Shown here: in pieces, positions 10,789 through 58,236 of the stretch
Numbering within the stretch: the first letter of the stretch is position 1
Layout of the letters: every line of letters starts with the position of its first letter
From: Undaria pinnatifida
Lineage: Eukaryota; Sar; Phaeophyceae; Laminariales; Alariaceae
Direction: 5' to 3'
Assembly (NCBI GenBank): GCA_012845835.1
Contig: JABAKD010000002.1
Location: 17,387,129 to 17,451,128 of the forward strand
Length of the DNA stretch: 64,000 nucleotides
Notes under the pieces: model-generated
Told to the model about the DNA's origin: nothing
Database searches by the model: none
What the model saw: only the letters and a program-made list of their open reading frames with translations
Made by a program: the position numbers and the translations under genes

Positions 10789-13700
10789 CTACACCGTGTC
10801 TTCGACGCAGACGTCGTCGAAGTCCAGACCAATGAGAGTGGCATCGTCATCGACATAACCCAGGGTGCATCCAGTCACCGGCTGCGCGCAAGAGCGAGTG
10901 GGGGGGGGGGCACATCGACGGGCACGATGCAGAGACCGGTCAGCGTAATGGCAAGATCAAGATGCATACACACACGTGTGCGACGATGGAGGTAGCACCT
11001 TATGGCAAAGTATTATCTGAAGGACGAGGCTCCTTCACGCCTTTTTAAAACTGGAAACCCTTTTTTTTTGGGACAAATTTACTTGCAGCTAGTATAGAAA
11101 GGGATTCGGGGCTCCAAAAGGGGTTATCCCACAATCCTCGCGGAACAAACCTAGGCCACGGGTTTAGTCGTCGGGCTACACTTTCAGTGTGCTCAAAGCA
11201 AGTTTTTGGGTGAGGTGTGTGCATCAGGTATGGAGCTCCTTAAGAGGTTAGGAGCCTCGGAATACACACACGGTGCACCGTTACCGAAGCAGGTGTCCAG
11301 CACAGCGGCCAGGTCACCGGATGGACCAAGCGGAGTTGTACGCCCCAAAAGTGAGCACCCACGTGCGAAGAGCGCGCTCGGACGACACTTGCGGACAGCT
11401 CCATGATGGTGCAGAATAGAACGTCATGTGCATCGTTTGCCGTTTCTATGGCAGGCTTTAGGGGCATAACTTCCATGGGAGACCCAATGAAATCCATGAG
11501 TCACACATGGAAGACCCATGGAAATCCATGGGTTTCCCATGGAAAACCCATGGGTGACTCACGCCGGCAGAATAACCCATTGGCAACCCACATGCAACCC
11601 ATGGGCTACCACCACTAAGCCATGGACAACCCGTGGGTCACCTATGGCTATCACTACTAAATCGTGGGCAGCCCTTGGGTGACCCACGGACTACCATCTC
11701 TGTGAGTCATGGGTCAGCCCGTGGGTTGCACGTGGGTTGCCCATGTTTTGCCCATGGGTCGCCCATGCGTTGCCCGTGGAGAAATCCCGTGGGTTGCTCA
11801 CGGAAGACGCTAAAGCATGCTACCTGGAAGAAATTTTGTCGAATAAGGTTGATGGCGGTTCCGAGGTACCAGGAACATCCGCGTGTCTTGCGTCTCTTTT
11901 GAAATGGCACAACGACCAAATCTACCCGACAGGGGGCCAGACCCGTGAGTGTGACCCATCATGTCTTACATCGTTGTTGTACTGGTTGTCGACGATGTAG
12001 TTGTCCGAGGCCCTGAATACCTCCGGGTTGAACGTCAACGTCCCAGGGCCGATGGTCGGGTTGGGGCTGCGCGAAACAAAGAAACGCCCACGGCAACGAA
12101 AGGAACAACGAAGAGTACGGTTATCGAAAAACGCCGCGCAGACTTGACGCGCTGGGCAGGGGTCGGAAACGTTGTCACGCTTGTAACATCAGAGCCTTTT
12201 AACACGCTTCAAGTACAGCAAGGCACCTCATGATACCGATTTGGGAACGCATGGAAGCCTCAGCGTGAGGGCCTCACCACTACCCCAGCGACAAGAAACA
12301 GCAAAAAAAAAAAATGGTACCCGCTAAGCCATGGAAAACACCGTGTACCGCGTTTCGTGTTCCCATAAAAAAGTGCGGTACTCGAGGTAGCATCTGTCGC
12401 CGCTCGTGGCTCGCACGTTGCACAGCATATCGTAAACTGCTTGCGATCCGAACAACTGAACCTCCCACCTCCCCCCAACGACAAAATAAGGATACCGCGA
12501 AAGGAGGATTGCTGTGAGCGACCACCTAGTTGAAACTCATGCCGCACATAGTCAAATGCCAAGCATAATAATCATACGTGAGATGTCATCCCACGGTACA
12601 GTTGCAACGAAAATTTCTAAGCCTACTCCTAACATGAGAAGCAGTCAATCGCGCAATCCGACCAGCACTCACTTCTATTTATGCGCTAGTCCTAAAACAA
12701 ATACCGGTATATATCCTCGAAAAAGTGTCCGGCTAACCGGTAGTTCCTGACGTTCCTGGACTTGAGCAGCTCAATCGGCCAGAACACACTCTTTTTAACC
12801 CGAAAATTTTACCCCCTACGGTGGGACGACTCGTGACGTACTCAAGGAACCCGTGAGGAAAATCTACCGTCCTCACGTTCCGTACAGACCGCCGTATGTG
12901 ACGGCGAAGGCGCCGCCGCTGTAGTCAGCCCCGTTGGTATCGAACTTGACCGCCTTCTTGAATCTGGTGACAGGTAGGTCCCAAAATTGGGCAGTGCACG
13001 TATTGTGGGGGGAGCTTGAGCGGTCGCACAATGTACCGTAAACAACAAGCAAGAAGCATAAGCGCCGTTCGTTGCCGTGAATCATGAGAACACCAAGGAG
13101 GTGTTTTGACGGCATATGTCCACACGGCGTAGTGGAGACCCCCTGACTTATGATCTTCGGGGGAGGGCAGACTATTCACCTCCGCAGCGGGCTAGGAAGC
13201 ACTCCTTGGTGGGATCAAGGTTCGGACATCCAATCCACCCTAACCCCCGGCCTGAATCCCGAGCCAAAACGGGCCAGAAACGCGGCTGCGCCGCTTTCGT
13301 ATCGAGCGGAAAAAAATACAGAGAATGCTGAATCGCTCGCTGACCACGATTAGAACTGCAGACCCCGCCCACCCAATGACCAAGGAATAACGTCGCTAAA
13401 GATCCGCGGGACCAGATCGCAAGGCTTGCTGGCGTCGTCGTCACCCAAAAATCAACCGCCATGACAACTGTTGTTTCTCGATTTATTTATTTATTATTTT
13501 TTTTCATCCTCCGGCGGAGGGGGAAAAATGAAGCTCAAGCTCACCACACTTCCACGTATTTTCGTATGCGACGTGTGTCGATTCAACTCAGTTGCTTTCG
13601 CAGCCCAACGCTAGCTGGCGCACCCTTCGGATCCCACTGTAGCGATAGCGTGGGCTGTCCCTATCAGTGGTCCTCGTTACAACCCCGGCAGCGCAAGCTG

Positions 13701-16700
13701 CCGTTGTATACGGATGATTTAATAAGCTGGATTTAATGCCAAAAAAGTGTTATTCGTGCCCGAAATGCAGCACAGTCGAGTTCGCGCCAAATCAATACGT
13801 TCATGCCTGCGGGTTAGTCTTGCCGGGCGAGTTGGAAAAAAAAACAAAGCAGGCGCATCTACCCTACTCTAGTAGAGGCACTCTGAAGTATTCATTCGCA
13901 GGCAATCCTCACGTGACGTCACCGCCGGTCACTGCGATACCCCCGCCGTATTCAGCCTCGTTTCTGTTGAACTGCGCGGCACCCTTGAAGCTGCAGGTTG
14001 ACACAAGCACAAAAAGGTCGGGGGCGGGCAAGGGAAGGAAACGAGGGCGGGTCACCGTCTGAGCGGTGGCGATACTCTAACGTAGAGGAGGTACTCTTTC
14101 GCCCGGCGATACGATTTTACTCAGGAACCCAGGGTCCGGCTTGAAAAGTATCGCACCTTGCCTGAAGTGCGGATTTACGCCGCCACGAAACAAAACAGAG
14201 TCAACAGAGTCAACAGAGTCAACAGAGTCAACAGAGTCAACAGAGTAAACAGAGTAAACAGAGTAAACAGAGTAAACAGAGTAAACAGAGTAAACAGAGT
14301 AAACAGAGTAAACAGAGTAAACAGAGTAAACAGAGTAAACAGAGTATACTCACAGAGTATACTCACAGAGTATACTCACAGAGTATACTCACAGAGTATA
14401 CTCACAGTTCACAGAGTATACTCACAGAGTAAACAGAGTAAACAGAGTAAACAGAGTAAACAGAGTAAACAGAGTAAACAGAGTAAACAGAGTAAACAGA
14501 GTAAACAGAGTAAACAGAGTAAACAGAAAGAAACGTGGACAGGGATTGGGTGTCGTCTGGCTTGTTACAGCAGTGTCTGGGCACCACAGGTCTCTTCGGC
14601 CCGACGCAGCGGAACAACAACACGAACATAAAAAATACACGTACCAATACGGAAGGGGCAAACAGCAAACAAGTCTCGAACGTTTCGTTGTTTCTAGTAG
14701 CAAAGCCAACTTGCGCGAACACGCCCCCGCCTGCCTCCAGCGGGAGAAAGGGACCAATGATGTAATGCATGCCACAGAAAGGAAGCCCTTGATACAAAGC
14801 GCCGTTGGCTGTTCATACTCTTGCCCACGCGTGCCGCAGCGCAAGAACGGCAATACAATGGACATGGTGTTGCCGCCCAAAGAGTAAACCTTAGCCTGGC
14901 TGTACGAAACAATTTTTATTCGAGGACACAAGCGATGTGCACTCACAGAAGGGCTCCGTTGATGTTTCGAACGCCCCCACCCCAGTCGCTGTAGCTGATG
15001 TTGTCGTTGAAATAGGCCTTTCCATAGAACCTATCGTCCAGAGCGTTGTCGGTCGCGTGGGGCATAGTGCATTGCGAGCGTGAGCAAAGGGGTAACGAGA
15101 GCTTGGAACCAAAACACGCCTGGGTACGGCAAGTTCGATTTACGGGTACAGCGCGCAAGACATGTTCTCTTCAGACAACCATGCGACGCAATATCGAAAG
15201 TCAGGAAGGAGGTGGGCTCACGTCATTTTTCCCCCGTTGTAGACAGCGGATCCCTCGTCGCAGCCGTGGTTGGAGAAGACCGCGTCGTCACGGAAACTGT
15301 CGTCGAACAGAGCAAAAAAAGAGGGCGACGTTTAGGCAGTGGAGTAGCGACGACGTACACATGGCAAGCGCGGCTATCAATAGACGAAACGAAACCATGT
15401 TCATCGGTGAAACGAACTGCTACCGATAAAAAAAATGGATGCACCTCACGGTCCTGACGGGCCAAGGGATGCACTCGGTCGGCAGTCTGACTATCGTGGT
15501 GCTTTGAGACGCGTGCTACAAAAGAGGCGCATCTCTTTTTTTCTGTTACTACCCCTCAATTTGGGAGCTTAAGACATGTCCCTCCCAATAAAACTGGTAT
15601 ACGTAGACCGGATGACAAACCAAATGGCCTTGTAGGCACACGACGAGAATAGGATGAAAATTAATGGGGCGTATTTTCGACGATTGTGGGTTAAGGAGTC
15701 GCGCCATTCGGAAACCATTTCCGACGAAAAGCGCTTCCTCCGTCGTCGTAGCACGCGTCTTGAACGGTGGTCTCGAACGCTGTTCTTCGATCGAAACGCT
15801 TCGGCCTACCATCGTGCACGCGTAGGGAAACTATGCTCGGCGCATACACATAGGACGCGCAGCACGCGTCTGGAGAACGGTGGTGTCGAACGCTGTTCTT
15901 CGATCGAAACGCTTCGGCCTACCATCGTGCTTGCGTAGGGACACCATGCTCGCGCATACAAATAGGACGCGCAGACGTCAAGCCATGCAGGATTCGCTTA
16001 CATAACAGTGCCCGATCTATTGGAGACTCCACAGCCCGATGCACCATCGAAACTTCCTGCGCGATCACCGGAGGCAAGTTCCAGGGTTTTGGCGTGCAGG
16101 TCAGAAAAACGTCAGACAACAAGAACTATTGTAATTTTGTAGAATCGAACCACCGGTGCGCTCAGCACAGAAACGGACAACACCCGCCTATCCTGGGTTC
16201 TAGTTAGTACTAGAAGCGTATCGCGCTTGACCACAGCGGAGCTAGAACTGTAAGCGATTGATCCCGAGACACCCTTTGCATTCGGGATTCTGCGAGCTTG
16301 AGATTTCGTTTGGCGCACCTGCGTTGTCGTCGAAGGTTGCTGTCTTCGAAAACCTGCCATCCATCGTAAGAGAAGTCGAACATGGCAGACGGCGGGTAGG
16401 GCTTCTCGTCGGACGATCTATAGCATGTGCTCGTCAACTACAAACAGAACAACGCTGTGATTCACGTTCATAAAAGTGCCGGCGTTCGCCACGCTTGCGC
16501 GCGGGCACAAAATTGAAAGTCATCCACTCCCGGTCGCCACGAAAGGGACACCATCGTGGTTTGCGGCAAAAATCATACCGCCACAACTTCATGCCTGGTG
16601 TAAAGTAGCTTGCATCCTTCTGCTCTCTTCCTGTAATCTTTCCGCTTTTCGCTGAACCAGGAACCCAAAAATCAATGCTGCCGTGTTTTATTCCCAGTTG

Positions 16701-19700
16701 TACTCGGTTGCACTCGAAAAAAGCACGCTTTAGGCTACTCAATGGCCGTAAAACGCCCAACTACGCCAACACAATTGCTAGCGTAATTGTAGGCCTACCT
16801 GCAGCATGCATGCACGAGCAGCGGCCATACCTGACGTAAGCATCGTCGCCCTCGTTGTCGAGGGCCAGCCAGCGATTGTTCTTGAAGACGCTGTCGCCAC
16901 GGAACCTATTGGACAATGGAAAGAAACACACAAACACAAACATTTTTCACATGTGTGAGGGCCCCCCACTCTTGACTCAACATGTAGTTTAACTGCTGCA
17001 ATTATCAGCAGCTCTCCTGTAGAATCTACCGTGTGTCGAGAAAAGAACACTACAGTAGTTGTGTATAGCTAACATAGTCAGGGATGGCGAACAGATGGAA
17101 ACAACAGCGAATAAAAAAAAATAGGAGTCTATAGTAGTATTATCAAATAAATATTAACACAATGCACACAAACGAACGCAATGACGGGGGGATCATGGCC
17201 AAAGCGGTCCGCGACCAGCGCTGGGCGACGGGCCGTTGGTCTGCGAGGGCGAGCGCCGTTAATTAACCGCCGAACAGACGGGAAGGAAAAAAAAAACCAA
17301 TTATGATAGTAGGATTAACTTGATGCCCACGGTGGAGACATTCCGGAGGTCTCGAAAACAATTTTCACGGCGACGTGGAAACGCAATAATCATAGGACAT
17401 GAGGGTGTCCGAGCATTGAGAGCGGGGCACTACGACATCCACCGTGTACCAAACACCGAGGATGAAAAAGACGGGTTGTTTGGGGGCTAACATAAAGCAG
17501 GAACGGTGAATAAAACAAGAATCAGGTAAAACAATTTTACCGTGCGTATTCCTCGTAAGCCTACACTGCTGTACTATGCACAAAAAACAAGACAGGGCTC
17601 GGCGCGACCAAATGTACACCATGTACAAAAAAAGTCGCGCCAGTGTAAATAAAGGACAAAATGGCCAAGAAGTAGTGGGTACGTGGTGAGCGATACAAAT
17701 ACAATGTGGGAAGATCGCGTCAAAGCTTGTCGGCGGCCAATCTGGGAAAACGTGCCTTCAAACGTTTGAAATGGCGAGTGCTGGGTTCGCTGGCTGTTAG
17801 TCCGTCAAAGCGTCCACAAAGTCTTCTCCGGAAAAAAAAACTCTTCAACGAAAAAACTCAAGGCTTCTGCGGCTGACGCCACGTCACGTCATGCAGTGGA
17901 AGCGATTATAAGGGTAGTGCCAATTGAATAGCGCGCCGGGATGATGTCTGCGTATTCGTACGGCGTAGGAGGTCGAGAGGTTGGATCGAGAGCTGTCCAG
18001 GACCAACGAGACAGCGCGCGTCCAGGGTTTGAAAAGCCCCCAGCATGGTACTACTTGAAAGTTATGCTGTGATGCTCCAAGTAGTTGCATCACGTACATG
18101 GACATATTATGGGAAGTTCCGGCTGTACTTCTTCAGGATGTAACGTTTCAAAACGATGCTCAGGTATGTGACGACAAAAATTGGCGAGCGCTGGGCGACT
18201 CGCTGCTGAGCCCGTGAAGCCCTGCAGGGGGAAAACGCCACCAAAGTATGGAAACGCAACCAAAGTATGGAAACGCAACCAAAGTATGGACACACATCGA
18301 CGTGAAAATCCGATCATCTTACTTTAGAGTGCCGAGGTTGCTCCGGAAAACGTTGCCGTTGTTGTTGAAGAGCGTGTCGCCCTTGAAGCTGTCGCCACGA
18401 AAAACATAACGGTCATATCCATCCAACGACGAAAAGCATAACGGTCATATCCATCCGTTAGTGGGTCGAAAGAGTGGCTTGATATAGAGAGCGTTACGGG
18501 TGTGGGTGTGTGGGTGAGCTGCCGCGCCTCGCCTGACATCCATTAACGAACTCGATTTTTTTTCCACTTGGGTTGGTTGCTATTGCATACCGACGAATCT
18601 CCCAGCCGCAACGCACACCACACACCACCTTTGAAATACCCAAGCAGACGGACGATTTGGCACGTGCTGGGCGGCGATGATAGTAGCGTGAAAAAAAAAC
18701 TGAAAAAAAATCCAGGACTGCAGTCACATTATATCAGGATAAAAAGCCATCGCTGATGGGTGCAGCACGCGCGTGATCGCAACTCAACGCGTTTACAACT
18801 GGAAACCCTTTTTTTTTTTACAATTTTTTACACGAAATTAGTATAGGGAGGGACTTAGGGCCCCTGAAGGGCTTCCGAAGATACACGTTTTCGCACATGG
18901 GGCAGACGACCGATCCCCACGTGATGATCTATAGTTCTTTCCGGGAGGATATATGTACGGTCTGGCTCATGATACCGGTGGGAGCCGTGCGATCTACGTG
19001 CTCTAGCAAAAACGCTTCAGGGGATACAGCATGCCTAGAAACGATTTAGGCAGGGGAACTTTCCAGTAAGGTTCACTCTTTCCAGGAAACTATTTCTCAC
19101 TGCTAGTGTGAGGAGGAAATATCGTGGTACGCAGTTCGGAGATCGTGGTCCACAGATCGGAACAACTTGAAAATAAACAAAAAACATCGAAAGCGGCGGC
19201 GCAGCCACTTTTCTCGCCCGTTCCTGGCCTGGGTTTTGGGTCCGGGTTGGGGTTTTTAGGGGTTGGGTTGGGTCTATGCACGCCCGTGCCTTGATCCCAC
19301 CCCCATCACCGGGGAAGATTCCTGGTAACACGAACATGCGCGGCAAAACAAACCCGACCCTGCCGTGGGAAGATCTATCCCAACTACCTACTACTGTAGC
19401 TTCTATTAGTGGGGGTCCTCATCGATATGCACTCTAAATTTACAGATCCTGCGCAACATCTCATGACGGCAGAATCCGATACAGGATCCATTGCAGATTA
19501 TCCATATGATCTATGTGATCTATGTAATCTATCTCATATTTGTTATCTATATGATCTTTGTGATCTATATGATCTGTATGATCTATGTGATCTGTCCGAG
19601 GTGTGCATCTTTTTTGAGACACAACAAACAGCGGCTGAACAACCTTCAGCCGACTAAATTAACAAAAAAAAATGGCCACCGCTTGACCGCGTCTTTCTTG

Positions 19701-22700
19701 AAACGAAAACGGAAGCATATCCCGACCAACCCAGCAGTGAGTTACAATCATACATACGGCGCGGCCACGACGATTTGGCAGCGCGGGGGGGGGGGGGGGG
19801 TCGGACTCACTCGATTGTGCCGGAGTTGTAGAACATGGAACGGATGTTCGTCACCTTGCTTCCGCGGAATTTCCCCATGAACGTCACGCTAGCGCCAGCA
19901 TAGACTTCGAGCATGAATCCTGTCCCACCCTCTTCATCCTGCACCGGAAAGTCAAAATTCAAAGGCATACTCAAAAATGACACACGTGCATGCATGCCGC
20001 GCGGGGTCGATAGGCATTGTAAGTATCTGTCGTAAGCATATAGGCGGGTGATAATTCAAACATCAAGATCCAAAGCGCTAGCTTCTTTTATTCGCGATGC
20101 AAAGTACAGGAAGGTCGCGTTCGAGCTGGCTCAAGCCGAATCTACGATCGAGGTTCCACGACCGCCGGTCGATAGTAGTTGAGGATAATATTATCCACAT
20201 CCTCCAATCGACCGACGCGCACAGGCAAAGGACGGATAACCATCCTGATACGCAAGATCTTAGCGACAGCTGTACGATTTTTTAGTAAAAAATACTAATA
20301 AGGTCGCGTTTTAGATGGTTGCAAGTGCATCTATTTGTGGGGGTGATCCCTGCTCCAAATTATCATTGCCAAAGAATTACAACTTCAACCGCCGACGTAC
20401 ATCGAACTAAATCCGAAAGATTTTTAGCCGATCGTCCACTGTAAAAAGACCCACCACCAGATCCCGGCACGGCAGTATACTCGTACGTATAGTACGCATA
20501 CCTGCATGTTTTAACGCCTTCATAATTAGGGTGTATAGCACGTCTATCAGCTATGTATGAGTGCTCGACGTTGAAGCTCATGCTGTACGTTTTGAATGGC
20601 ATATACTAATATTAATAATATGTAACAATAATGACTAAAATAAAATATTTTAAAAAAGTACATATATACGTATAGTCATCCCACTTTCGGAACCTTCCAG
20701 GAATTCTCGGTTGTCTTACCCCGCTGTTGGGACCGAACCGGGTCACGGGCATGTCGAATATCAGCTCGGCCCCTTCTTCGACTGTAAACCGGAGATTGAC
20801 GAACCTGAAGAAAACGCCGTGGTGTCGCGGTCATGGCACGTGGGGGGAAGAGCGAAACGCAACAAAGTACACATGCTTCATGACGTCGTCCACGAGCCGA
20901 CGCATTTCTTGCGCAATATATGACGTGCAAAGACCGACTACCGCCCCCTCCCGGCTAGTGAGGGAGCAATGCAGCCGGTGACAGATGCCATCTCAGACAG
21001 GAATAAGTCAGCCAAGCAATGGACACCCCATTTTGGAATTGATTCCTCTGTCCATTGCATTGTGTGTACGAAGGACGCGGATGGATAGGCTGCGACTCAC
21101 AGCAATCCCAACATGCTATTAAAATACGCTGCTTGTATGGATGCATATCGTCGGAAGGTGCTGACGAGAGTGCGAGCAACATACTGCTCGAGCAACGATT
21201 AAGAGCAATGTTCAATCACATCGTGTTTGCAGTTGTTTTACCTATCTGAAAACCCCATATGCCTCCATCCAAACCATAATGAACACCAAGCAAGGGAAAA
21301 GCAAGCCAGTCGTTTTCATTGGCGCTGCACAGGTAAAAGTACATGTTACACGAATAACAAACATGTATATGTAGAAAACGAACGAGACGCCGTATCACCA
21401 TTAACAGAGCTAGCTGGGAGTCGTCACGACTTAAGTACTGAAATCACCAACTAGTCATTAGTCGGACTATCCCTCCGGGAACCGACTAACTAGTAAACGA
21501 CCAACTTAGTGGTTTCCCAGAGGTATTGAGTATCCGCATTACTGGGGTTACATTTTCGGCCAAGGCAGCGGTATTAGTATGGGGATGTTATGGTGGTGTT
21601 GTGGTGATGTTATGGTGATATTATGATGCTATGATGATGTTATGATGATGCTATGATGATGTTATGATGATGTTATGATGATGCTATGGTGGTGTTATGA
21701 TGATGTTATGATGATGCTACGCTGATGTTTTTTTTTTTTTTTTTTTTTCCGCACACTTGTACTTTCCAGCTTCTGGACAAGCCGTGGTCACAGGTGCCGT
21801 CCTTTCTCCCCCCCGGTTCTTGCCTTCAATTTTTATCGCGCATATGATTCAGCACTCCCACTGCTCGGCGATTTTGTTATCGAGTGTTGTTGCTAATTCA
21901 CGCTCTCGCGCTTTCCGCAAGTCAATTTGTGCACAAGAAAAAGTCCCAACGAATTTATACGAGTATGCACTAGGCGGGGCTCGAACTCACGAAACTGACC
22001 TATACTAAGGCTCGAAGATAACCTGATACGCCACCGGGGCGACCGGCTTTCATGATGATGTTATGATTATGTTTTGATGATGTTATACTGATGTGCTGAT
22101 GATGCTATGATGATGTTACGATGATGTTACGATGATGTTGTGGTGATGTTATTATATGATAATGTTATAATGTTGTGATATACCCCCTTTCTCAGTACCG
22201 GGTCTGAGCTATCATATCATCATATCGTATCATATCACATCATATAATATCATATCATATCATCATATCGTATCATATCACATCATATCATATCATACTC
22301 GCACGAGTGACTCTGTACCTCACTGACGAAAATACTTGAGGCGATTTTTTTGGCGCAGCGTAGCTTTTCATTCCATCGCGGAGTTAATATCGCTTGCCAA
22401 AGGGATAATAGCACGAAAGCATCAATAATGCTGGATGTGCAGGTTCAGGTTTTCTTTATTAGGCGGGGCGCTCTGGGCCGGGGCAGACTAGGGCTGCGTC
22501 GCTCACCAAGACTTGAATCGGCAAGTCGGCTGGCCACCAGTCTGCTTGCCGACTACAGTCGGTTTGTTGGCTACCGGCACCTGTCGAATACGAGTAGGTA
22601 CTACCGGAGTCGTGAATTTCTGCCGACTCACAGCTCTACCAATCACCCGAGTACCGGGGACTCACAGCTCTAAAAATCACCCCAAGCACCCCGCTGTCAA

Positions 22701-39812: not shown

Positions 39813-39929
39813 AAAATTGACAACTGAGCCACCCCGCGGTAGGGGTGAAGCAAATTCTAAGATTTGTCTGAGCTCCTAAAATGAGGAGCTAGCTCCGTAT
39901 CAACATCATCACCCGAAAAATGAATTCGA

Positions 39930-42887: not shown

Positions 42888-43141
42888 GATACCCGAAAAT
42901 ACACCCGAACATATCAGAAGAGGCCCGTAGATATACCACGATGTCTACACGATCGAAGACGAGGATACTAACACCCGATCGCCCTCGATTTTTCCCCAGT
43001 GCCAACATACCTGTGATACCCGAAAATACACCCGAACATATCAGAAGAGGCCCGTAGATATACCACGATGCCTACACGATCGAAGACGAGGATACTAACA
43101 CCCAATCGTACTCGATTTTTCCCCAGTGCCAACATACCTGT
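42888..43141. repeat. 127-base tandem duplication
   Basis: Two nearly identical units starting GATACCCGAAAATACACCC at 42888 and 43015. They differ at only a few positions, so the event is recent. Non-coding. Confidence 0.92.
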
Positions 43142-43749
43142 CCTACGTGAAATCTCCAGACTTATTGGGAGCTGATCGGGTTTGATCATTTTCAACTTGT
43201 GAAATGATCACCCAGCAAAACAGAGTTGACACCAGAGAAAACGTGGCTTACTTGTCAGCCCGCAACCCCGCGGAGACAGGCCCCACAAGGTCAAACCCAA
43301 GACTGACCGACGACTGACTGGTGATCCGTAGCCGCAAAGAGACGCTCAACCACGGACCCACTACCGACCCGCAGCCGCGGGCAGACCCTTTCCCACGAAC
43401 CGACCATCTGCTGCACGCGACGATCTCAGAGCAAGCAGCAGTATCCGTTTTACCACAAAGATGCAACTCGAAATAATGGGAAACCGGGGATGTATTCCGA
43501 ATATCCCCTGACGACCACAAGACTCTAGACCCCCTGATTCAATCCGCCATGGCCCTTTTATGCGTCATTGCCATATTTTACATCGCCAGAAATCAAGGTG
43601 TCTCAGGTTGGCTAAAACCAGACAATACGCACGTTTGTGGCTGGCTCATCTGTTGTTTGAGTTGAGGCGCGATCATCCCCAGTCTAGCTCTTGAGAGCTA
43701 CATACCCCCCCCACGACTCCAGTATACCAGTATGTGTTCTTCACATCAA

Positions 43750-43960
43750 ACAGGTATTTCCACCTATCTACATCCAGCACAGCTAGTGTCCGTGCGGATG
43801 CCCCCTGAGAGACGCTCTGTAGTGATAACTTACGAGACAGATATACGAGACAGATATACACATTACAGAATACAGCAAGGTAATTTGTCCATGCAATGCC
43901 AATCGTAATGAACACGAGGGAAAAACACATGCAAGCCAGGACACCAGACTAGTCGCAAGG
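43750..43960 (+). repeat. Dispersed repeat family 3, copy 3
   Basis: Matches 8605-8830 over its full length: ATCCAGCACAG, GTGTCCGTGC.GATGCC, CATGCAATGCCAATCG.AATGAAC, GCAAGCCAG.ACACCAGA. Confidence 0.75.
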
Positions 43961-44658
43961 AAAAAAAAACATGGTAATAAGAAGAAACAAGAATGATACA
44001 AATAGCGAGTCAAAATAGGCAGCTCGATCGATTAACTCGAGTTCACGTCAACCACAACAGTAATCATAGCATGCACGGCAGGCAGCACGAGATGGTTTCA
44101 ATATAAGAGGCACATATATACATATATATATATATATGGGCTTTGACATTCTTTCGTGTTGGGTTATCATTGACCAACACACCAGGTTTGATATGGCCCT
44201 CGACGGTCATCGGTGAGACGAAGCTCTCCCGTCCAGGGTATCTCCTCCCAACCTCTAACGCTACATGGCTAAGCTTCGGACAGCTCAGCCTCTGCCCATG
44301 CATTACCCTCCTGCGTGTGAATGGTTCAGACAGCCACCCCACATCAATACAATAAACACTGCCGCCCCGACGCCCATAGTGGGAGTCTGTGCAAAACTGT
44401 TTTCCCGGTAAAAGCCGGGCAATAGCGCACGGCTTTCACGGTGTAGATTCTCCTCTATATCCCGTGTTAATTCTAGTTTACAGCCACTACCGCAGGGTAG
44501 CAGTCTTTGTCCAAACACCCCAGCATCTTCGTCAACGTGTCAACACCGTGGAAAAAGACAAGCGCATCAACAAGAAGATGCCTTCAGACGGACGGACAGC
44601 GACGGCGTATTTTACTTCGTTCCAAATAGTTAGTGTTACATTACGTAGAGGATCAGCG

Positions 44659-47600
44659 CTAGACCGTGTCTTCGACGCAGACGTCATCGAAGTCGAAACC
44701 AACCAGGGTGGTGCCTTCCTCGACATAGCCCAGAGTGCATCCAGTCACCGGCTGCTTGCAGGGGCAGGTTGGGGAGGGGGGTGGGGGCGCAAAGACGGAC
44801 ACGGCACAGAAACTGATCACCTTGGCGACTGCAGTATGGTCCACATATCATACAGGGGTGGTGTCGTGGGATTGATAATTTATGAACCTTAAAAGAGTAA
44901 GCAACCACGTGCAAAAAGTGCGCTCGGTGTTTTGGCTTGGGCGGCACGATCGACACTATTCAAGGTGATGCAGAACAGACGCGATTCACTACCCGTCGTG
45001 TGTAACACATTCCGTAGAAATAACCTGGAGATGAGCGACATACCCAGTATCTACCAGGCGTGTATCAAGAAAGAGGCCGGCCACCGTTTCACAATCATGC
45101 CGTCGAGCTCATCAGGCCTCACCAATCACTATAATGACCGAAAAGTAGGAACGTGGTATCAGGTTTATATAGTACCGGTTGCGTGTATTTCGAAAGGCAA
45201 CCCGAATGAATCCTAATGAGCTCTGGTACACGGCAGGCGGTCAGGTTACCCTATCATCGTGACAACAATATCCTACCTCGTCGTTGTACTGACTGTAGAC
45301 GAGGAAGTTTCCTGAGGCCCTGACCACCTCAGGCTTTTTGAAGGTCATTACTCCCGGGCCGATGTCCGGGTTGGGACTGCGAGAAGCATCAATGCACGCG
45401 ACAACGAAAGGAAAGAGAGTGTGCACATCGCATCAGCAGATTGGAGGTAGCAGGTGGCGTTCGCAAAACACACGCACGCTTGCGGCATCACAGTGGTCGG
45501 AACACACCGGCACCAATCGATGTGCGATCTGATGGCGCCGACGACGCAACGCACACATGGATTATCATGCGTGCCTCCCCAGCAACCCAATCACAAGTAT
45601 TTTGTCGTGTCACATGATGGAAAACACGACATAAGTTTGCGATTTCCTATCGAAAGGCAACACAAGAGTCAACACGTGGTCGTGGCTCGCATGTTGCACT
45701 GCATAATAAAAACATTGAGTTGCACCGCATCATGAAAATATTGAGCGAAAGAAACGATCATCCGACCCCCCCCTCCGCCCTTTCCGAGCAATATATTATA
45801 TCGTGTACGGATACATAACGCAAGCAGGAAATTCCTTTGGCACAAAAAAACTGTCCTCACGTTCCGTACGATCCGACCCCCCCCTCCGCCTTTTCCGAGC
45901 AATATATTCTATCGTGTACGGATACATAACGCTAGCAAGAAGTTCCTGTGGCACAAAAAAACTGTCCTCACGTTCCGTACGGACCGCCGTATGTGAGGGA
46001 GAAGGCGCCACCGTTGTAATCAGCCCCGTTGGTATCGAACGTGACTCCCTTGTTGAATCTGCGACCATTGGCATATCACAGTACATTTGATAGGGAAGGA
46101 ATTTAAGCGATGGCCATACATCGGTCGAGCAAGCGCAAAAAAAATTGGCGTTTCCGTCATTCGCGAGACACCCTGGAGGTGGCTCATCATATGTGTCTGC
46201 GGCATAGTCACCTATTCGGTCGTGCAACTGTAGTTTGATCTAAACCCAATTCGTGAGTTTGCGCTCGAAACGTAGTACAGCCGAGTGGGCGCCAAACCCG
46301 TCTTCCTTTTCGTGCCTGCCAGTTAGTTGCCTGCTTGGGGAGTTGGCAAGAAAAAAATATACTACGTAATAAGTCTGCGAATGTCCTGCGTAGCATTAGG
46401 AACACCCCTCACGTGACGTCACCGCCGGTCACCGCAATACCCCCGCCGTATTCAGCCTCGTTGTTGTTGAACTGCACGGCACCCTTAAAGCTGGACGTTG
46501 GCACGCGCACAAAGAATTCATGGGCAGCAGACGGGGGGAGAAGAGGGCGTGGTCAATGTCACAGCTGTGGTGGCAACCGAACGCACGGGAGAAGGCTCTA
46601 CGCTCAGTAACACGATACTGCGACGAACACGACATCCGACCTGAAAGCTGTCGCACCCTGCTTGCAATGCTGTCGGTCTGTATACTACAGTAGTAGTCTA
46701 CGGAATGCGGGAACGCCTGCAATCTGCACTCACAGAAGGGTGCCCGCGTTGTTTCGAACACCCCCACCCCAGTCCCTGAAGTTGATGTTGTCGTTGAAAT
46801 AGGCTTTTCCATAGAACCTGTCGTTCAGCGCGTGGTCGACCGATCGGAACATAGCGGAATGGCGAGAAGCGGTAAGTGGAAACGATACATTGAAACAACG
46901 CAGCCGGTAATAACGACTAGATCTCGTGAAAGGTGTTGCTACATGTAGACCGCAGGACGGTGACCACGGAAGAGCATATCGCAAGACACAGCAACTTTTG
47001 GAGACTACCAAATGGCGCAAGATCACAATGCCAGTAGGTTGACTTACGTCATTTTGCCCTCGTTGAGAACGGCCGCTCCTTCGTCGCAGTTGTGGTTCTG
47101 GAAGTTGGCGTCATCACGGAAGCTGTTATCGAACAGACACGAGGAAGATGGGGGAAGGGCGGCGGGCGTTCTCACTTGTCTGCCTTCGTCATTCAACCGC
47201 ATTGACTATCCCTTTCGAGATGGAGCACCGGGGGGGTACTAGGGGGGGACTAGTCGCGGGTCGCGGTTTACACGCGCAACCTTGCGCGATGAGACGAGAC
47301 CAAACCATCTCAACGACTGTAACGAACTTGTTGAGTTGCAAATCGGATGCTTTGTACTCATGTGAAGTGTCAACGGATAGACGGGTGGTCGGCTTCTCGT
47401 GATAGTTGGAAGATACATAGCAAAAAAGGCATCACGCTCGGGGCTTTTTGTCTAGGACACGCAGTCGTAGACATGGAGGGTTCACTTACATAACTGTGCC
47501 CCCTTCGTTGGCGACTCCACAGCCCCCGGCGCCATCGAACCCTCCTGTGCAATCACCGAAGGCAGGTTCAAGGGTTCGGCATGCAGGTAACGGAATGCAA

Positions 47601-50600
47601 TAATAAGTACGTATTGTGTGTTTGAATTACTGGTATATATGTACACGGCACAGTACACGGCACAGGATCGGACGCTGATGTGCCTCTATTCAGAAGCACA
47701 TCGCCTTTCACGCATTCTAGGTTCGTGAGCATAAAACCGTATACAGGTATACATAGGGACTGCCCTTCGTGTCACGAACAGTTGAAATGCGAAGAACACT
47801 TCACTTATGGCGTCGTCGCCGCATAAACGTACTCTGCAGTTGCTCTATTTATGGGCACTCCTTCTGCACAAAATTCGTGCGTGGGCAGGCGGAATTTACC
47901 ACCCCCCAGTCGCACGCCTCATGCTACACTGTTGGAAGAGGTGAAATCCCCTGATGTGAACACATGAACATCTTCAGACATCATTAACCCCCCCGATACA
48001 TGTTCGTACTAGTAAGCGTGTCTATCTATACGAATATGTGCATTGCGTGTGACAACGGCCCGGTTGAATGTGTGTTTGCGCGAAGTCAAATTTCGTTTGC
48101 CTCTCACGACGCACCAATACTACGCACCTGCGTTGTTGTCGAAGGTCGCCGTTTTCGAAAATCTGCCATCCGTGGAACAAAAGAGGTTGGGCAAGGAATA
48201 CGGCGGGTAGAACCTCTTGTCAGACACTTTCGTATCACTGCTCTGTGTTCGAGAAAACACTGGAAACTTGACCACTCCACGTATAACACCAGTGGAAGAT
48301 CATCGTTGCTTGTGGCAAGACTAACCGTCTCAGCATTATTCAAGCCCCACGCCACACTCTGCAGCATGCACGAGCAGCGACCTTGTTCAAGACACTATAC
48401 CTGACGAAAGCATCTTCGCTGCCGTTGTCGAGGGCAAGCCAGCGATTGTTCTTGAAGACGCTGTCGCCGCGGAACCTATTGGACGGAACGAAATACGTCA
48501 GGCAAAGCCAAAGTTCAATTTTCATGTGGGTTGGTGTTAGAGTGACAGGATAGGGCTGGCCTCATTAGTAACAACACAGCAGTGTAAAGCGATACGTTTT
48601 TCTTGCCAGTACAGTAGGTTCAAAACGTGCTTCACCTTGTTGGAATGGAAGCAGAAAAGGTGTGTATATGTTAACGTAAGGCGTTCCAAGAACTTTGCTA
48701 TGGTCTGAAAGCTGGAAAGTGAGTGGTGCGGTGCCCCACTTTCCTACTCCGCATGGTCCCCTTCGCATCCGTCAGCACCTTTCGTTGTCCATTTTGATCC
48801 AATCATCAGTCCATTCTTTTTTTGGTTTGTAAGCATACATCAAATTATCCTACGAGTTGTAGTGTCTACAGCTGAGAGTCTAACAATGACTGATGGCGGC
48901 TTGTTATGTAACGATGGGGCCAGGGTTTCCTCTCGCGACTGTCCGGGCAAATGCCTCACGCAGGGTCTACCTGCGTTGGCGGGGATCTAGCTGTCGAGAA
49001 GCTCTCGTCTTAAACAAAAACGGCCAAGAGGAGTGGTCCTGGCGAGGAACGGCCTCCGTAGTGTGTGGAAAACCCAACACCTGGTATGCGTAAGCATGCA
49101 TGTCTGGTGCTTGTAAGCACCGCCAAAGGAATAAAATAAACTCGAAGTCAAACGGTCTGTATATCTGCAACGGCGGCTATCTTCAAGCTTGTTGCTCGTT
49201 GTAACAACTGGAATACTGGAGATTGGAGCTAGCTTGGGGATTTGCGAAGCTGGTTATGACATTTCTCCTATCAACTCTAAACGGATAGTCGGGATGGGGA
49301 TCAAGGCCCGAACGCTTCGCCTCGCGATGACATGGTGAACCCGGGGAGATCTGGAGCACGGAGGTTGGAGCATAGCAGTGCGTGGGCTTGCGCGCTGGAG
49401 ATCTATTATCTTGCGTCCTGGATTCTTTGTTTTCTGGTACCTAGGATACGGGGATTCGTAAAGGGGCCTGGCTGCTGATTCATTTGTCGCGTATACCTGA
49501 TAAGCGCTACGTAGTTGAAAGAAATTTTGCGGACACTACCGCATCCAACGCAACGCTCTGATTGCCGATCGGTATAGGCCCATGTAGGTATGGACATGAA
49601 CATCCGACATACTCACTTTAGAGTCCCGAGGTTGCTCCGGAATACGTTGCCGTTGTTGATAAAGAGCGTGTCTCCCTTGAAGCTGCCACGATGAAAGACA
49701 AAACGATTACATTCATCCATTAGTTGGTCGTAAAGCGGTGTTGCTTGGGAGCGAAGCGTGACAATAATGTATTACCGATTGTTGAATCTGATTGGATGTA
49801 TAACCAGCAAAATTTTGGGGCCACCGCCACTCGGGGCAGTTTGCCCAAGCCCAACTCAACAAAAACTTGTACAGGGATATATTCCAGATAAAACAACTAA
49901 CAGCGGCCCGAAACCCTCAGTTATTTCAACTGACTTTACGTCTGCGATTGCTGTTACATTGCATGAACTATACCAGGTATACGAAGTAAAGCAATACACA
50001 AAAGTAGCCCCGAACAAACCGGCGAAAGTGATGCAATACCAGGTATACGAAGTAGAGCAGCACACAAAAGTAGCCCCGAACGAACCGGCGAAAGTGATGG
50101 TGAATCACGCGGCGCGGGCGAGGAGGGGGACGGGGGACTTGGAGTCGGACTCACTCGATTGTACCGGTGTTGTAGAACATGGAATATACGTTGTCCACCT
50201 TGCTTCCACGGAATTTTCCCGTGAACATAACGCTAGCGCCGGCAGCGACGTCGAGCATGTATCCCGATCCACCCTCGTTGTCCTGGACCGGAACGGCGGG
50301 GAACACATAATACTTACAATAGCCACTGCGATGGCAACATCAACATAATGCGAGTGTGGTGGACATCCCCCCCCCCCTCCTTTTGTTAACATCACGTTTA
50401 CTTTCCAGCTCACCTTGTAGTGAGGTACTATCCTTAGCAAATTTCTGGATAAGCCGTGGTTTCAGGTGTCAACCCTTCTCCCCCTCAGTACGCGCGTTCG
50501 TTTTATGGCGCATAGGGTTTAGCATGCCCACTGCTTGTCGATTGGCATCGACGTTCGCCAACTCGTGCTCTCGCACTTTCACCATGGTCGAAATGTTAAA

Positions 50601-53600
50601 GGAGAAGTCCATTGCGAGATCAGAACACAAGAAATCGACCCATTGGACCACCGGAGACGCCGCATATAAAATGTCGCCAGGAATGGCTATCGCTGACACA
50701 TTTCTCAGTCTGCTACTGCCTGGCGTCGGCAGCGTCTACCAGTGGCACCAATGTAGGGGTGTAGCAACCATTGTTTTTTCCTTCTGAGGGTGGTTGCTTG
50801 AGGAGCTCCCTAGCCCACCCGAACAAGTGTTCTTTTGAGCAAACTGAAAGTGCAATCCGATAAACAAATCCTCGTCCCAGGTATGTATACAAAAAACATC
50901 ACTTTGCCAAACGAGAAATGGCATACCAACGCATTTGGGTCAAGGAGCCTTTGTCATCCAGAAGGTCTTGTGGCCGAAAAGTGCTACCTCCACCGTAGCA
51001 GGCGTCCAGTATACAACACCAACACTGGGACGTGCCTTAGGGCGCATAAGAGGGTGTAGGCACGTCTAACGCATGCTTTAGGCAGTTGTTTTTCTACACA
51101 GGCGACATGTAAGGTTCACACATACAGGCTTGGTACATATACATGTACTATCCGGTATGCATTTATGTAATCACACCAGCCCAACCGGCAAGGCACAACA
51201 CAATAACAACGAATCCGATTTTAATCGCCAATTAAAGGGTTTGACGCAACCAATACATGCCGGATGGATTGTGGTGGCCGTTCGAACTTCGCAACAATCG
51301 TCGCCAGTCGTCTAAAGACTTAGACTCGAACGCGTCACGGCCAAGGAAACGTGTATATAGAGCAGAGGTGCATGTTCCGCGTTATACGTACGGTCGTGTT
51401 CGCACAAAGTAGACCTATTGGTATGTATGATGTTTGTTGTGGGCCGCTCTTCCCTCTCTCCTTTTCAACGGAAGAATCTTCCACAAGATTGTGGTTACTT
51501 ACCCCGCTGTTCGGGCCGAACCGGGTTACAGGCATGTCGAAGATCAGCTCGGCCCCTTCTTCAACTGTGAACCGGACATTGACGAACCTGAGAGGGCAAT
51601 GGCGTGGTGTCGAGGTCGTGGCACGTGGGGGGAAGGGCGTACACTAGATTCAGCGCAGCAAACAAACGCTTCATGGTGTCGTCAACGTGCAATCGCGTGC
51701 TTGCGCTGTTCGACTACAGAGCGTATACTGGCTCTATATGAAGCAGCGGTAGTAGTCTGGACTGCCAGGGTATATATATACTTGAACCAGCTTATACTAG
51801 TTTCTTTTCACAGCAGCAGTAAGTTCTTGCGCATTTGCGAAGTCGAGGGGTACTCTTTACCAGGAAGGCGTGTTACGGCAATGCCGTCCAAAGCCATTAG
51901 CATAATAACGGAAAAACAGCCTATTGCAACACTTACGCGTAATTATTTCAACTATCAAGGTATTTTCGCGATTATTAACCCGGGAGAAAGAGGCCTGTGC
52001 CCGGTATGCATACGTATGTGGTGAGATTGAGTTTCAGCACAATTGCGAGGCAGTTCGGAGTTCGGGACTAGGGGATGAATCAGTCTCCGAGGCCACACGG
52101 AGACTGACGCTGGGCCATTACAGTAAGGGAGGCTCTATCGCGAGACAACTGTACGACTGTCGGACGAGAGACACTGGGGGGGTAGAAAAGGCTACTGCAG
52201 TTTGGAATATCGATTGGACAGAAAATGAGGCGATCATCGTACATAAATCAATCAAAAGTTGAGTATCGCGTAAACGTAACCAGCCTATTACCGTAATCAT
52301 GCGAAGGATGGCACCCATCGGAGATAGGGCACCCACCGGAGATATGGCACCCATCGGAGAGATCGCACTGGGGTGCGCAAAAAAAAGCAAGAACGACACG
52401 ATTTAATTGTATTTCCGCACCCCCTTCGGAGAGATGGCACCGGGTGCGATCTCTCCGATGAAAATCCAAGATTGAGTGCTACCACAACGGGCCACTTTTG
52501 AGCTGTACGAGGTACTGAATGCAGTAGGTTCCTTCGACATGCGGTTAGCTTACATCATCAGGGCGCCACTGCTCTTACGTACCATTATTGTACCGACGCA
52601 GTCCGCGCGTTGAAGAGAGTCAAGCTGGTTTCATTTAATCGGTGTTGTATGCTCTCAACCAAGGGCACAACGCACATACCGGGAACTGGGATCAATAAGC
52701 TGCTGTGGTGGTGTTCAGTATCGCACCCATCGGAGAGATGGCACCGGGGGTGCCTTGAAAAACTAGAGTCAAATGATTTAATTGTATTTCCGCACCGGTA
52801 TCGGAGAGATGGCACCCATTGGAGAGATCGCACTAGGGGTGCCAAAAGAAGAAAAGGAATTTGTATTTAAAAACGTGATCGCATCCGGCGCAATCCTTCG
52901 CATGAGCCCGGTAACAGGGAGAGGCTAATACGGAACCTGATGATCCACGATGGAGAGCAGACGTAGGTAGTAGAAGTGCAACTGAATGTAGATAATGCGT
53001 AGAATAGATAATTTCGACAAAATCCTCGATCTCTTGGCACAGCTGTACAACTGTATTTTTCATTTTTAACGAAAACAGAGAGATTATTGTGATCCGCAAG
53101 ATCGAGAGCGTACGCATTTAGTGAATGGGTAGCTACTCGATCCCCACTGATTCAGTGCTTGGTTTCCGCCTTGTTTAGCACTAGACTCAGAATAACAAAC
53201 ATCTTAACACGTTTTCTACTTTTTTCATTTCCGTGAACCGGAGAAGTGCCTACGTCTTCCCAAACCAACCGAACTTCTGAAGGCATTCCCTCCAGTCTCA
53301 AGAGCACAGGACATTGCCAAGATCTCTTACAATTAGATGAATGTGGAGAGATCGGGTTTCGATATTACCTATGGCGAGGAAGTGTGACACTTGGGACACA
53401 GGGAGAGTTATCCCACGAGCGTTGGAGCCACCTCTCACACGATGATGCCTCAACGCTCATGTGCGGCAAGAACGATGGACGTACGTAGAAGGACGCACGA
53501 CTGCCGCCCGAGAAGACGTGGTAGGTGAAGTAGAGCAGTATACAGAGTAGATAGTTCAGGGCTTCGTAGAGTGAACGAACACCGAAGAGGTATGGTAGTA

Positions 53601-56600: not shown

Positions 56601-58236
56601 TTCGTGAGTTCGAATCCCCCCGAGTGCATGCTCGTATAAATTCGTGGGGACTTGTCCTTGTGCAAAATTGACTTGCGGAAAGCGCGAGAGCGTGAGTTAG
56701 CAACACTCGATGAAACATCCACGAGCAGTGGGATTGCTGAACCCTATGCGCGATAAAAATCGCAATTGAAAAATTGAAGGCAAGAACCGGGGGGAAGAAG
56801 GGAAGACACCCGTGACCACGGCTTGTCCACAAGCTGGAATGTAAAAGTGTGGAAAAAGAAAAAATACCTGGTACAACAAACAGATGGCTCGAAAACTAAT
56901 GACGTGCACATAATACTCAGTATAAAAGAACGGAACGATTGTGCAATTATTGCTACTACTGTCTGTTACCACACGCGAAAGAAGAGGAGAATCATGCTCA
57001 AGCCAACGGGGTCGCCACCAACCCGCCCTCCCAGCCTAAACCCGCGCCCGAGACATGCTTCCAAGAACAGAGAACCACATACCAGGTACGTCGTACCAGT
57101 GAGAAAGTGCTTGTACACTCAGCGACAGGGCAAAAGAGGTCAAAGCAAAAATGTCTCAAGTTCAGCGATAGAACAAGTATAGTACGATGTAGAGGTCCCC
57201 TCTTTAGCGCGGGTTGAACAGTGCCGACTGACTCCCTGCCATAGTAGTATTATTGCCTGTGAAATCGCTTGGCATAGACGGGAACCAGGGAACAACTACG
57301 AAGAACTGCTGTTGTTACGAGCAGTTTAGCCAGGACATATAGATCTAGTCTATAATAGGACAGCAGTGTGCCGGGTGCCGGTTGCCGCTATACGAGTATA
57401 ATAGTGCCAGTATTTCCAGCTGGCACATACCGGCACTACTACTAAAGAGCAACCACTAACACTAATACAAGTACAGCAGCAGCAGTGAGCAGCATTGGAC
57501 TGCTTTGAACTGAACCGGGGTTTTGGCATGAGACATCAACATCATGTACTTGACATTGCTGTTGAAGAGCGAAGGCAATGCGTTTTATCATTTCTGTGCC
57601 TGTGCGCTCTGAACCGTAAGTTTGATGAAAAGTAAGGCTGAAATCCTTACCGCACGAAGTCCTGGGTGGACTTGATGGTGAGGGTCTTGCCGCTTTCGAT
57701 GAGGATCTCCTCCAGATATCCGCCGTCGTCGTTCGCAGGGCAGTCCACCCTGATCACGGTGCCCAGGTCGATCTCGCTCACAGAACTCACGTCTCCGAAA
57801 TACTCATCGACGTCGTCGCACTCTGACCTGAAAAGAATTTGAAGCAGAATACATAATTGATGGGTTGGTACTGAATTAATCGAACCGATCACCAGCTACG
57901 TATTTTTTTCATAGTTTTACCGGTATAAAATCATGGCGAACGAGTTACGTAGCGGTATAACGTCGTTCACAGAGAGATGATGCTGCAGCACGGAAGCACG
58001 ACGCTCGAGCTCTGAGAAAAGGCGAAAGCACACATCGTCACAACGCGCGGGCAGGCGCTGAAGCAAAGCAAGCAAAAGCAGAACAAAGGGCTCAATGCCG
58101 ACGGCAAAAACAGCTGCTGCGCGTATGCATAGCTCTAATCTGTAATTCTACCGCACCTCTAATCGTACCTGACTGCTGTAGAAAGCGTAGCTAGCGCTAA
58201 GAGCGCGCACAGCGCCCAGGTCTTGGTGGGCATCAT
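44659..58236 (-). CDS. Paralogue C: secreted Pmp-like beta-helix protein, 401 residues, 14 exons, close to A
   Basis: Exons, 5' to 3': 58236-58169, 57827-57651, 51587-51503, 50282-50155, 49682-49617, 48475-48401, 48162-48128, 47544-47490, 47122-47048, 46817-46734, 46490-46413, 46058-45972, 45376-45277, 44751-44659. They total 1206 bases and end in TAG. The signal peptide is MMPTKTWALCALLALATLSTA. Exon lengths match A except exons 1 and 13 (each 3 bases longer). Coils: FKGDTLFINN, FRGDSVFKNN, FRDDANFQNH, FYGKAYFNDN, FKGAVQFNNN, FNKGVTFDTN, several followed by GG plus hydrophobic residues. Six Cys are conserved. Homology to A extends into intron 13 (44890-45000 against 11330-11420), so the duplication covered more than exons. 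Introns otherwise differ greatly in length and repeats. The intron downstream of exon 12 holds a 111-base tandem copy of the exon end and its donor. Same inferred role as A: an exported, possibly adhesive or wall-associated beta-helix. Confidence 0.9.
45758..45985. repeat. 111-base tandem duplication covering the 3' edge of exon 12 of C and its splice donor
   Basis: The block ATCCGACCCCCCCCTCCGCC to CTGTCCTCACGTTCCGTAC is present twice. It contains the last bases of exon 12 and the donor GTGAGG (true donor at 45971/45970, duplicate at 45860/45859). Reading through the true donor meets TGA at once, so only the first donor makes the family protein. Confidence 0.88.
49968..50099. repeat. 66-base tandem duplication containing TACCAGGTA (intron 4 of C)
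   Basis: Two units starting ATACCAGGTATACGAAGTA, with AAAAGTAGCCCCGAAC and CCGGCGAAAGTGATG. They differ at about five positions. Confidence 0.9.
50396..50590 (-). mobile_element. SINE body, copy S4 (intron 3 of C)
   Basis: On the minus strand: GAGCACGAGTTGGC, GGGCATGCTAAACCC, CACGGCTTATCCAGAA and the long 3' end of S2/S3. Truncated before the tRNA-like head. It shares its orientation with S1 and S2. Confidence 0.65.
52307..52860. repeat. Two clusters of GGCACCCATCGGAGAGAT repeats (intron 2 of C)
   Basis: At 52307-52460 and 52720-52860 the roughly 19-base motif GGCACCCATCGGAGAGAT (or CGCACCC...) occurs at least seven times, once inverted (ATCTCTCCGATG). Both clusters share the stretch TTTAATTGTATTTCCGCACC. 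This looks like a duplicated element of about 140 bases. No coding potential. Confidence 0.8.
53660..53865 (+). repeat. Dispersed repeat family 10, copy 2
   Basis: Closely matches 24770-24965; preceded by a TACCAGGTA motif at 53630. Confidence 0.8.
54660..55060 (+). mobile_element. Composite repeat family 2, copy 2 (intron 2 of C)
   Basis: Contains GCAAGCTGTG.G, GATCGGGCGTATTACGGG, ATATAGGTCGGCGACTCCCC and AACAGGGTGATG, then a 3' subrepeat (54805-54920) and a second, truncated one (55000-55060) after a G-rich tract. Confidence 0.78.
55428..55454. repeat. Uninterrupted poly(C) run of about 27 bases
   Basis: One of many C/G homopolymer runs in the window. In intron 2 of C. Confidence 0.9.
56085..56300 (-). 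repeat. Dispersed repeat family 10, copy 3 (inverted)
   Basis: Inverted match to 24770-24965, interrupted by ACCAGGTACCCTGGTAC. Next to a family copy (55985-56060) and a partial CCTCCGGCGGAT element (55905-55972). Confidence 0.75.
56325..56420. repeat. AAC/AGC trinucleotide microsatellite
   Basis: AACAACAGC-type array. A shorter relative lies at 24162-24190, also near family 10. Confidence 0.9.
56543..56864 (+). mobile_element. tRNA-headed SINE, copy S5 (intron 2 of C)
   Basis: Starts GCCGGTCGCCCCGG, with A-box-like TGGCATATCAGG at 56557 and B-box-like AGTTCGAATCC at 56607. The body matches S1 (ACTTGCGGAAAGCGCGAGAGCG, CCACGGCTTGTCCA.AAGCTGGAA) and ends in an A-rich stretch. Together with S1 it defines one subfamily. 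Confidence 0.8.

Follow-up and report, generated by a model that had tools for sequence, protein, structure and literature searches.

We analyzed a 64,000-nucleotide window (the whole stretch of DNA under study, bases 17387129-17451128 of contig C26) from the 511-Mb, 68-contig genome of the brown alga Undaria pinnatifida. The window contains three neighboring genes, A, B and C, in which most internal exons encode one repeated coil of the predicted protein. Gene models and splice sites were built by exon-by-exon comparison of the three regions. Exon 1 of A and C was located through conservation between both genes, and exon 2 of the same pair is a block of 91% identical DNA in which a single frame is maintained. 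All three spliced frames are open up to the stop; position 10789 is the last base of the A stop codon, and 58236 is the first base of the C start codon. Protein C is 82% and protein B 52% identical to protein A. The splice sites, frame and exon borders agree in all three genes, which is more than chance would give.

Gene A, 25895 to 10789, minus strand: 14 exons, 399 amino acids
Gene B, 28418 to 37353, plus strand: 13 exons, 399 amino acids
Gene C, 58236 to 44659, minus strand: 14 exons, 401 amino acids

The exons are given below with coordinates in the window, strand, and phase at start and end.

A exon 1, 25831..25895, minus, 0 to 2: signal-peptide-like
A exon 2, 25249..25425, minus, 2 to 2: N-terminal part, two cysteines
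A exon 3, 20720..20804, minus, 2 to 0
A exon 4, 19811..19938, minus, 0 to 2
A exon 5, 18323..18388, minus, 2 to 2: coil 5
A exon 6, 16831..16905, minus, 2 to 2: coil 6
A exon 7, 16319..16353, minus, 2 to 1: coil 7, first part
A exon 8, 16002..16056, minus, 1 to 2: coil 7, second part
A exon 9, 15222..15296, minus, 2 to 2: coil 9
A exon 10, 14947..15030, minus, 2 to 2: coil 10
A exon 11, 13913..13990, minus, 2 to 2: coil 11
A exon 12, 12877..12963, minus, 2 to 2: coil 12
A exon 13, 11970..12066, minus, 2 to 0
A exon 14, 10789..10881, minus, 0 to stop: C-terminal part, two cysteines
B exon 1, 28418..28476, plus, 0 to 2: signal-peptide-like, GC donor (28477-28478)
B exon 2, 29199..29381, plus, 2 to 2: N-terminal part
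B exon 3, 31223..31307, plus, 2 to 0
B exon 4, 31997..32124, plus, 0 to 2
B exon 5, 32643..32708, plus, 2 to 2: coil 5
B exon 6, 33023..33094, plus, 2 to 2: coil 6
B exon 7, 33496..33591, plus, 2 to 2: coil 7, unsplit
B exon 8, 34122..34196, plus, 2 to 2: coil 9
B exon 9, 34415..34498, plus, 2 to 2: coil 10
B exon 10, 34967..35044, plus, 2 to 2: coil 11
B exon 11, 35567..35653, plus, 2 to 2: coil 12
B exon 12, 36388..36484, plus, 2 to 0
B exon 13, 37264..37353, plus, 0 to stop: C-terminal part
C exon 1, 58169..58236, minus, 0 to 2: signal-peptide-like
C exon 2, 57651..57827, minus, 2 to 2: N-terminal part
C exon 3, 51503..51587, minus, 2 to 0
C exon 4, 50155..50282, minus, 0 to 2
C exon 5, 49617..49682, minus, 2 to 2: coil 5
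C exon 6, 48401..48475, minus, 2 to 2: coil 6
C exon 7, 48128..48162, minus, 2 to 1: coil 7, first part
C exon 8, 47490..47544, minus, 1 to 2: coil 7, second part
C exon 9, 47048..47122, minus, 2 to 2: coil 9
C exon 10, 46734..46817, minus, 2 to 2: coil 10
C exon 11, 46413..46490, minus, 2 to 2: coil 11
C exon 12, 45972..46058, minus, 2 to 2: coil 12
C exon 13, 45277..45376, minus, 2 to 0
C exon 14, 44659..44751, minus, 0 to stop: C-terminal part

An earlier note on this DNA had described three neighboring genes with 13-14 matching exons and identical phases, and our models agree with that description (14 exons in A and C, 13 in B). Its further claim that internal exons run from phase 2 to phase 2 applies to most coils but not to exon 3 (2 to 0), exon 4 (0 to 2), or exon 13 and its counterpart, B exon 12 (2 to 0). 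It gave 66-87 nucleotides (nt) for internal exons; coil 7 occupies 35 + 55 nt in A and C and 96 nt in B. Coil 7 is cut in A and C (2 to 1, then 1 to 2) and whole in B, and B therefore has one exon fewer.

The three proteins share one architecture, in which coils are numbered 5, 6, 7, 9, 10, 11 and 12 after the exons of A. The first 20 or so residues, encoded by exon 1, form a hydrophobic stretch; the hydropathy maximum has its window starting at residues 4-7 in each protein, and the scan found no later window as high. The product of exon 2 is an N-terminal part with two cysteines, and the turns contributed by exons 3 and 4 are less regular. Seven coils of 22 to 32 residues follow, each encoded in B by one exon of 66 to 96 nt, and the last two exons add one further turn and then a C-terminal part with two cysteines. 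Without exon 1, the proteins have an isoelectric point of 4.22-4.28 and six cysteines in corresponding places. A, B and C are thus probably secreted-looking, acidic proteins, judging from composition and from the hydrophobic exon 1 kept in all three; the secretion previously proposed is a prediction from hydropathy. As for the coil motifs described before, each coil does begin with F, but the next residue can be K, R, Y, S, E or N rather than only K, R or Y. The F..N and GG motifs occur in coils generally, although GG is absent from coils 5 and 6.

We then examined relatives across the genome. A search with A returned at least 86 matches at E up to 1, and a search with K1, one of the relatives, returned at least 108 (maximum E 3). 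Counting loci by a match to exon 2 or exon 3 gave at least 19 family loci, that is, at least 16 besides A, B and C:

D: C26, 16.42 Mb
E: C26, 16.53 Mb
F: C26, 0.42 Mb
G: C56, 12.47 Mb
C19: 1.94 Mb
C25a: 14.00 Mb
C25b: 13.96 Mb
C36: 10.20 Mb
C38c: 10.82 Mb
H1 and H2: C38, 11.29 and 11.37 Mb
N: C38, 0.27 Mb
K1, K2 and K3: C28, 1.78-1.89 Mb
M: C20, 5.14 Mb

One more locus may lie at C56:12492806, where the last exon has a weak match (E 0.02). The 10 kb flanking the window on each side (L051, L052) contained no match reaching E 0.05. A K2 exon 3 match at L041:1684-1749 covers only 22 residues and yielded no model; this copy may be broken.

The models of H1, H2, K1, K2 and K3 contain all seven coils in order. 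The M model contains the first six, and the seventh was not found in the following 2.7 kb; the last exons of K2, K3 and M are cut off or lie beyond the DNA examined. Thirteen further exons from C36, C19, F, C25b, G and D were tested in all three start phases; in every case (13/13) the coil expected there begins in phase 2, preceded by AG. All but one of them (12/13) end at GT in phase 2, the other being C19 coil 7 (L056), which ends at a GC donor; GC donors were seen in the family at this site and after B exon 1. Five more stretches yielded, among others, coil 6 of G and C19 (placed by eye) and coil 5 of D, each as a 2-to-2 exon. Match ranges had suggested that coils 5 and 6 are fused in G and in C19, a reading rejected because coil 6 is a 72-nt exon in both. 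In the same two genes, a single 139-nt exon encodes coil 12 together with the sequence of the next exon. Altogether, 80 coils could be assessed at the DNA level (seven each from A, B, C, H1, H2, K1, K2 and K3, six from M and 18 from short stretches), and 76 of them are single 2-to-2 exons. The four exceptions are coil 7, in A and C, and coil 12, in G and C19. The proposal that each coil has its own exon, in phase 2 at both ends, holds for these 76 of the 80 coils.

The earlier note had suggested that exon shuffling may duplicate, remove or exchange coils, which would be expected to give coils that resemble other positions or stand in varying order. We compared 76 coils from 16 genes, joining coil 7 of A and C across its intron and taking coil 5 of D and E from match ranges. 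For every coil (76/76), the best match in another gene was the coil at the same position, compared with about 14% by chance. When each coil's own subfamily was excluded, 75 of 76 still matched the same position, the exception being coil 9 of H2. All eight complete sets (A, B, C, H1, H2, K1, K2 and K3) have one order of seven coils, and no coil was doubled or out of order in the genes known by match positions, which cover part of the coils. These results speak against exon shuffling in this family. A 111-bp tandem duplication at 45760-45981 (105/111 identical) was considered as a coil duplication and rejected; of gene C it copies only the donor site and the final 10 bases of exon 12, and its reading frame is interrupted by stops.

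Rates of synonymous (dS) and nonsynonymous (dN) substitution were then compared between genes. For A and C, dS was 0.43 and dN 0.10 (dN/dS 0.24), with values per exon of 0.03 to 0.53. The ratios for A-B (0.35) and C-B (0.33) are rough estimates, with dS >1.2. Among the other relatives, dN/dS was 0.32 for K1-K3, 0.20 for K1-K2, 0.23 for K2-K3, 0.18 for K1-M and 0.22 for H1-H2; these pairs were compared without exons 1 and 14, K2 also without exon 3, H2 without exon 13, and M without coil 12 and exon 13. By these comparisons, selection is purifying on average (pairwise dN/dS 0.18-0.35), and such averages may mask single diversified sites. The claim that coil modules could be moved without breaking the frame is borne out by the symmetric phase-2 exons, yet there is no sign of movement. 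The layout looks ready for shuffling, and the family looks frozen.

The intron layout itself varies at two places. Of the 14 genes in which coil 7 could be assessed, two (A and C) have it split and the other 12 (B, H1, H2, K1, K2, K3, M, C36, C19, F, C25b and G) have it whole, so the simplest reading is an intron gain in the A-C line. An intron separates coil 12 from the following exon in seven of nine genes (A, B, C, H1, K1, K2 and K3) and is absent in G and C19. The same genome also contains intron-poor Pmp-like genes (Pmp, polymorphic membrane protein) at L046, L047, L048 and L050, whose open frames have no intron between coils. L046 resembles A, matching residues 25-342 (tblastn E 9e-16 among selected loci and 9.1e-6 in the whole genome). 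Among its coils, the third scores highest with the position-9 profile and the fourth, narrowly, with that of position 10; the remaining five show no clear position fit. L047, L048 and L050 encode clear Chlam_PMP repeat proteins. Long Pmp-type repeat frames were observed at these three loci (and at L049 by tblastn only), with frames of up to 2089 amino acids elsewhere.

The coils were also compared with known Pmp-type repeats. According to PMC11166332, the coils of Chlamydia Pmp proteins are turns of a beta-helix, and almost 200 proteins from outside the bacteria also contain PF02415 (Chlam_PMP). A pattern with relaxed Pmp-type spacing has three matches in A, two in B and three in C (means in 2000 shuffled copies, 0.06, 0.04 and 0.07), and the strict published pattern has 0, 1 and 0. 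The polymorphic outer membrane protein (POMP) repeat profile, POMP_repeat (NCBIfam TIGR01376, cut-off 15 bits), was exceeded by three of six proteins tested (B, 24.1 bits; C, 16.2; H1, 22.5); P0001, an intron-poor relative, had no match, and the profile also matched 1 of 14 control genomes (E. coli). Chlam_PMP was not listed for A, C or K1 in Pfam and remained below its cut-off of 20.6 bits in H1 (15.8) and P0001 (15.1). Other Pfam matches of A were DUF285, under the family cut-off (E 0.0032), and Beta_helix (E 9.9). We left aside two weak matches, Pfam G8 for K1 (E 0.023) and NCBIfam rhombotarget A for P0001 (E 0.07). The Pmp-type character ascribed to the family is therefore supported in part, by B and C, while A falls below the cut-off. 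The alignment of the three proteins, searched against viral and prokaryote collections, gave 40 and 168 pattern matches, respectively, none of which encodes relatives.

P0001 was used to model the fold. The prediction is a three-strand parallel beta-helix of low confidence, and adhesins, tailspikes and other beta-helices score alike against it. The beta-helix named in the earlier note is thus present in a model, albeit a low-confidence one of a relative rather than of A, B or C. From this model, A, B and C are probably beta-helical.

Exons, phases, fixed coil order, purifying selection, acidic composition and the lack of a strongly hydrophobic stretch beyond exon 1 are established here at the level of sequence comparison. 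We consider it probable, if by no means settled, that they reflect an old duplication of coil exons, now frozen, in a dispersed family of secreted, acidic, probably non-catalytic proteins. A one-coil exon flanked by phase-2 introns would have been tandemly duplicated before the family spread. The layout would since have been kept, except for the intron gain in coil 7 of A and C and the intron absence after coil 12 in two relatives. The chain would wind as a right-handed parallel beta-helix, each turn supplied by its own exon and the ends closed by disulfides. The protein could serve a structural or adhesive role, without catalysis, in the extracellular matrix or at the cell surface, with helix faces that might bind matrix polysaccharide or other proteins.

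Several observations count against this explanation. The exon borders of A, B and C come from comparison, and the model search for H1, H2, K1-K3 and M required phase 2 on both sides of a coil, so it proves that such exons exist and leaves other readings possible. No credible first exon was found for H1, H2, K1, K2, K3 or M, nor were credible exons 13 and 14 for H2. The folded relative is only about 28% identical to A and was predicted from a single sequence; its model has a predicted local distance difference test score (pLDDT) of 52.8 and a predicted template modeling score (pTM) of 0.61, with 173 of 351 residues under 50. Foldseek with this model gave no significant match (best E 0.64), and two of seven coil-start introns fall outside predicted strands. 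A, at 13.6 bits, is under the TIGR01376 cut-off, K1 has no match to that profile, and Pfam places no family above cut-off in A or C. The structural or adhesive function, which we regard as most likely, is our inference.

The intron-poor genes bear directly on an alternative history, in which a repeat gene without introns acquired the coil-border introns singly, at equivalent sites. The relative matching A residues 25 to 342 has an intron-free helix, and 66 of 96 POMP-repeat matches in the genome lie within open frames of at least 200 amino acids, so the introns may instead be later additions; both the intron-poor relative and the long-frame Pmp-like genes also fit such insertion. At least one intron gain, in coil 7, is the simplest reading within the family. 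Single insertions would nevertheless have had to place seven borders in one coil register and one phase, neither of which the gained coil 7 intron follows, and the intron-poor relative may have lost its own introns. We hold this history to be possible but doubtful. It is unlikely, in our judgment, that tandem-duplicated, frame-neutral exons, cut inside the second strand, are alternatively spliced to give helices of differing length while the coil order of the gene stays fixed.

That the family generates new surface recognition or adhesion specificities by gaining, losing and swapping coils, like the LRR-ROCO and NB-TPR genes (LRR, leucine-rich repeat; TPR, tetratricopeptide repeat), appears very unlikely. 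The phase of the symmetric exons is the one described for LRR exons in PMC11378527, the copies are clustered, the proteins look secreted and intron sites vary slightly. Set against this are the same-position neighbors of all 76 coils, the constant order in all eight complete sets, the lack of doubled coils in genes known from match positions, dN/dS well below 1 and the asymmetric intron within coil 7 of A and C. A beta-helix carbohydrate-active enzyme, for instance a lyase or epimerase whose substrate is alginate or some other wall polymer, is quite unlikely. A catalytic role on wall polymers may be compatible with the fold, but no Pfam enzyme family was above cut-off in A, C, H1, K1 or P0001, and a sequence search of solved structures with A returned no relative up to E 10. 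The similar scores of adhesins, tailspikes and other beta-helices mean that the common fold proves no function.

The proposed old, now frozen duplication of coil exons can be set beside known systems. The family resembles Pmp/POMP proteins in its F..N and GG motifs, its 22-32-residue repeat and its POMP scores above cut-off in B, C and H1. It differs in that no Chlam_PMP domain is above cut-off (A, C, H1, K1 and P0001), no autotransporter barrel or middle domain is listed for A or C (Pfam, E up to 10), and the genes are eukaryotic and split into one-coil exons; the last exon contributes 29-30 residues to A, B and C. PMC11378527 describes brown-algal ROCO genes with 72-bp phase-2 LRR exons and reads the one-repeat-per-exon LRR and TPR genes of brown algae as shuffling candidate immune receptors. 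The genes studied here likewise have one structural repeat per phase-2 exon. In contrast to the 72 bp given there, exon length depends on position (66-96 nt); A and C have no GTPase or other signaling domain above cut-off (neither ROC-COR nor NB-ARC is listed for them in Pfam at E up to 10); and no shuffling is seen, with coil number and order constant among paralogues. A kelp unigene named polymorphic outer membrane protein, in PMC10573767, is a naming precedent for Pmp-like kelp transcripts and is likened by name alone.

Pmp-like proteins and one-repeat-per-exon genes are thus known separately. Their combination, one-coil-per-exon beta-helix genes, was not found among the literature matches listed, a set that leaves most subscription papers outside its coverage. 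Because the exon-per-repeat layout occurs here without a sign of shuffling, the layout alone is not evidence for a shuffling system. With at least 19 genes, position-aligned coils, and an intron gain and an intron absence that can be placed, the family is a natural set for studying the origins of repeat exons.

The window has several other features, two of them within introns of A:

1621-2334, plus strand: exon-like open frame whose first 161 residues match the DnaJ domain (Pfam E 3.9e-16)
14193-14527, intron between A exons 10 and 11: about 35 copies of the 9-bp unit AAACAGAGT
22906-23733, long intron between A exons 2 and 3: three copies of a 274-bp unit
30000-30479 and 59427-60118: common dispersed repeat, pieces about 69-81% identical
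60810-61449: about 45 copies of a 14-bp unit, with several frames open on both strands
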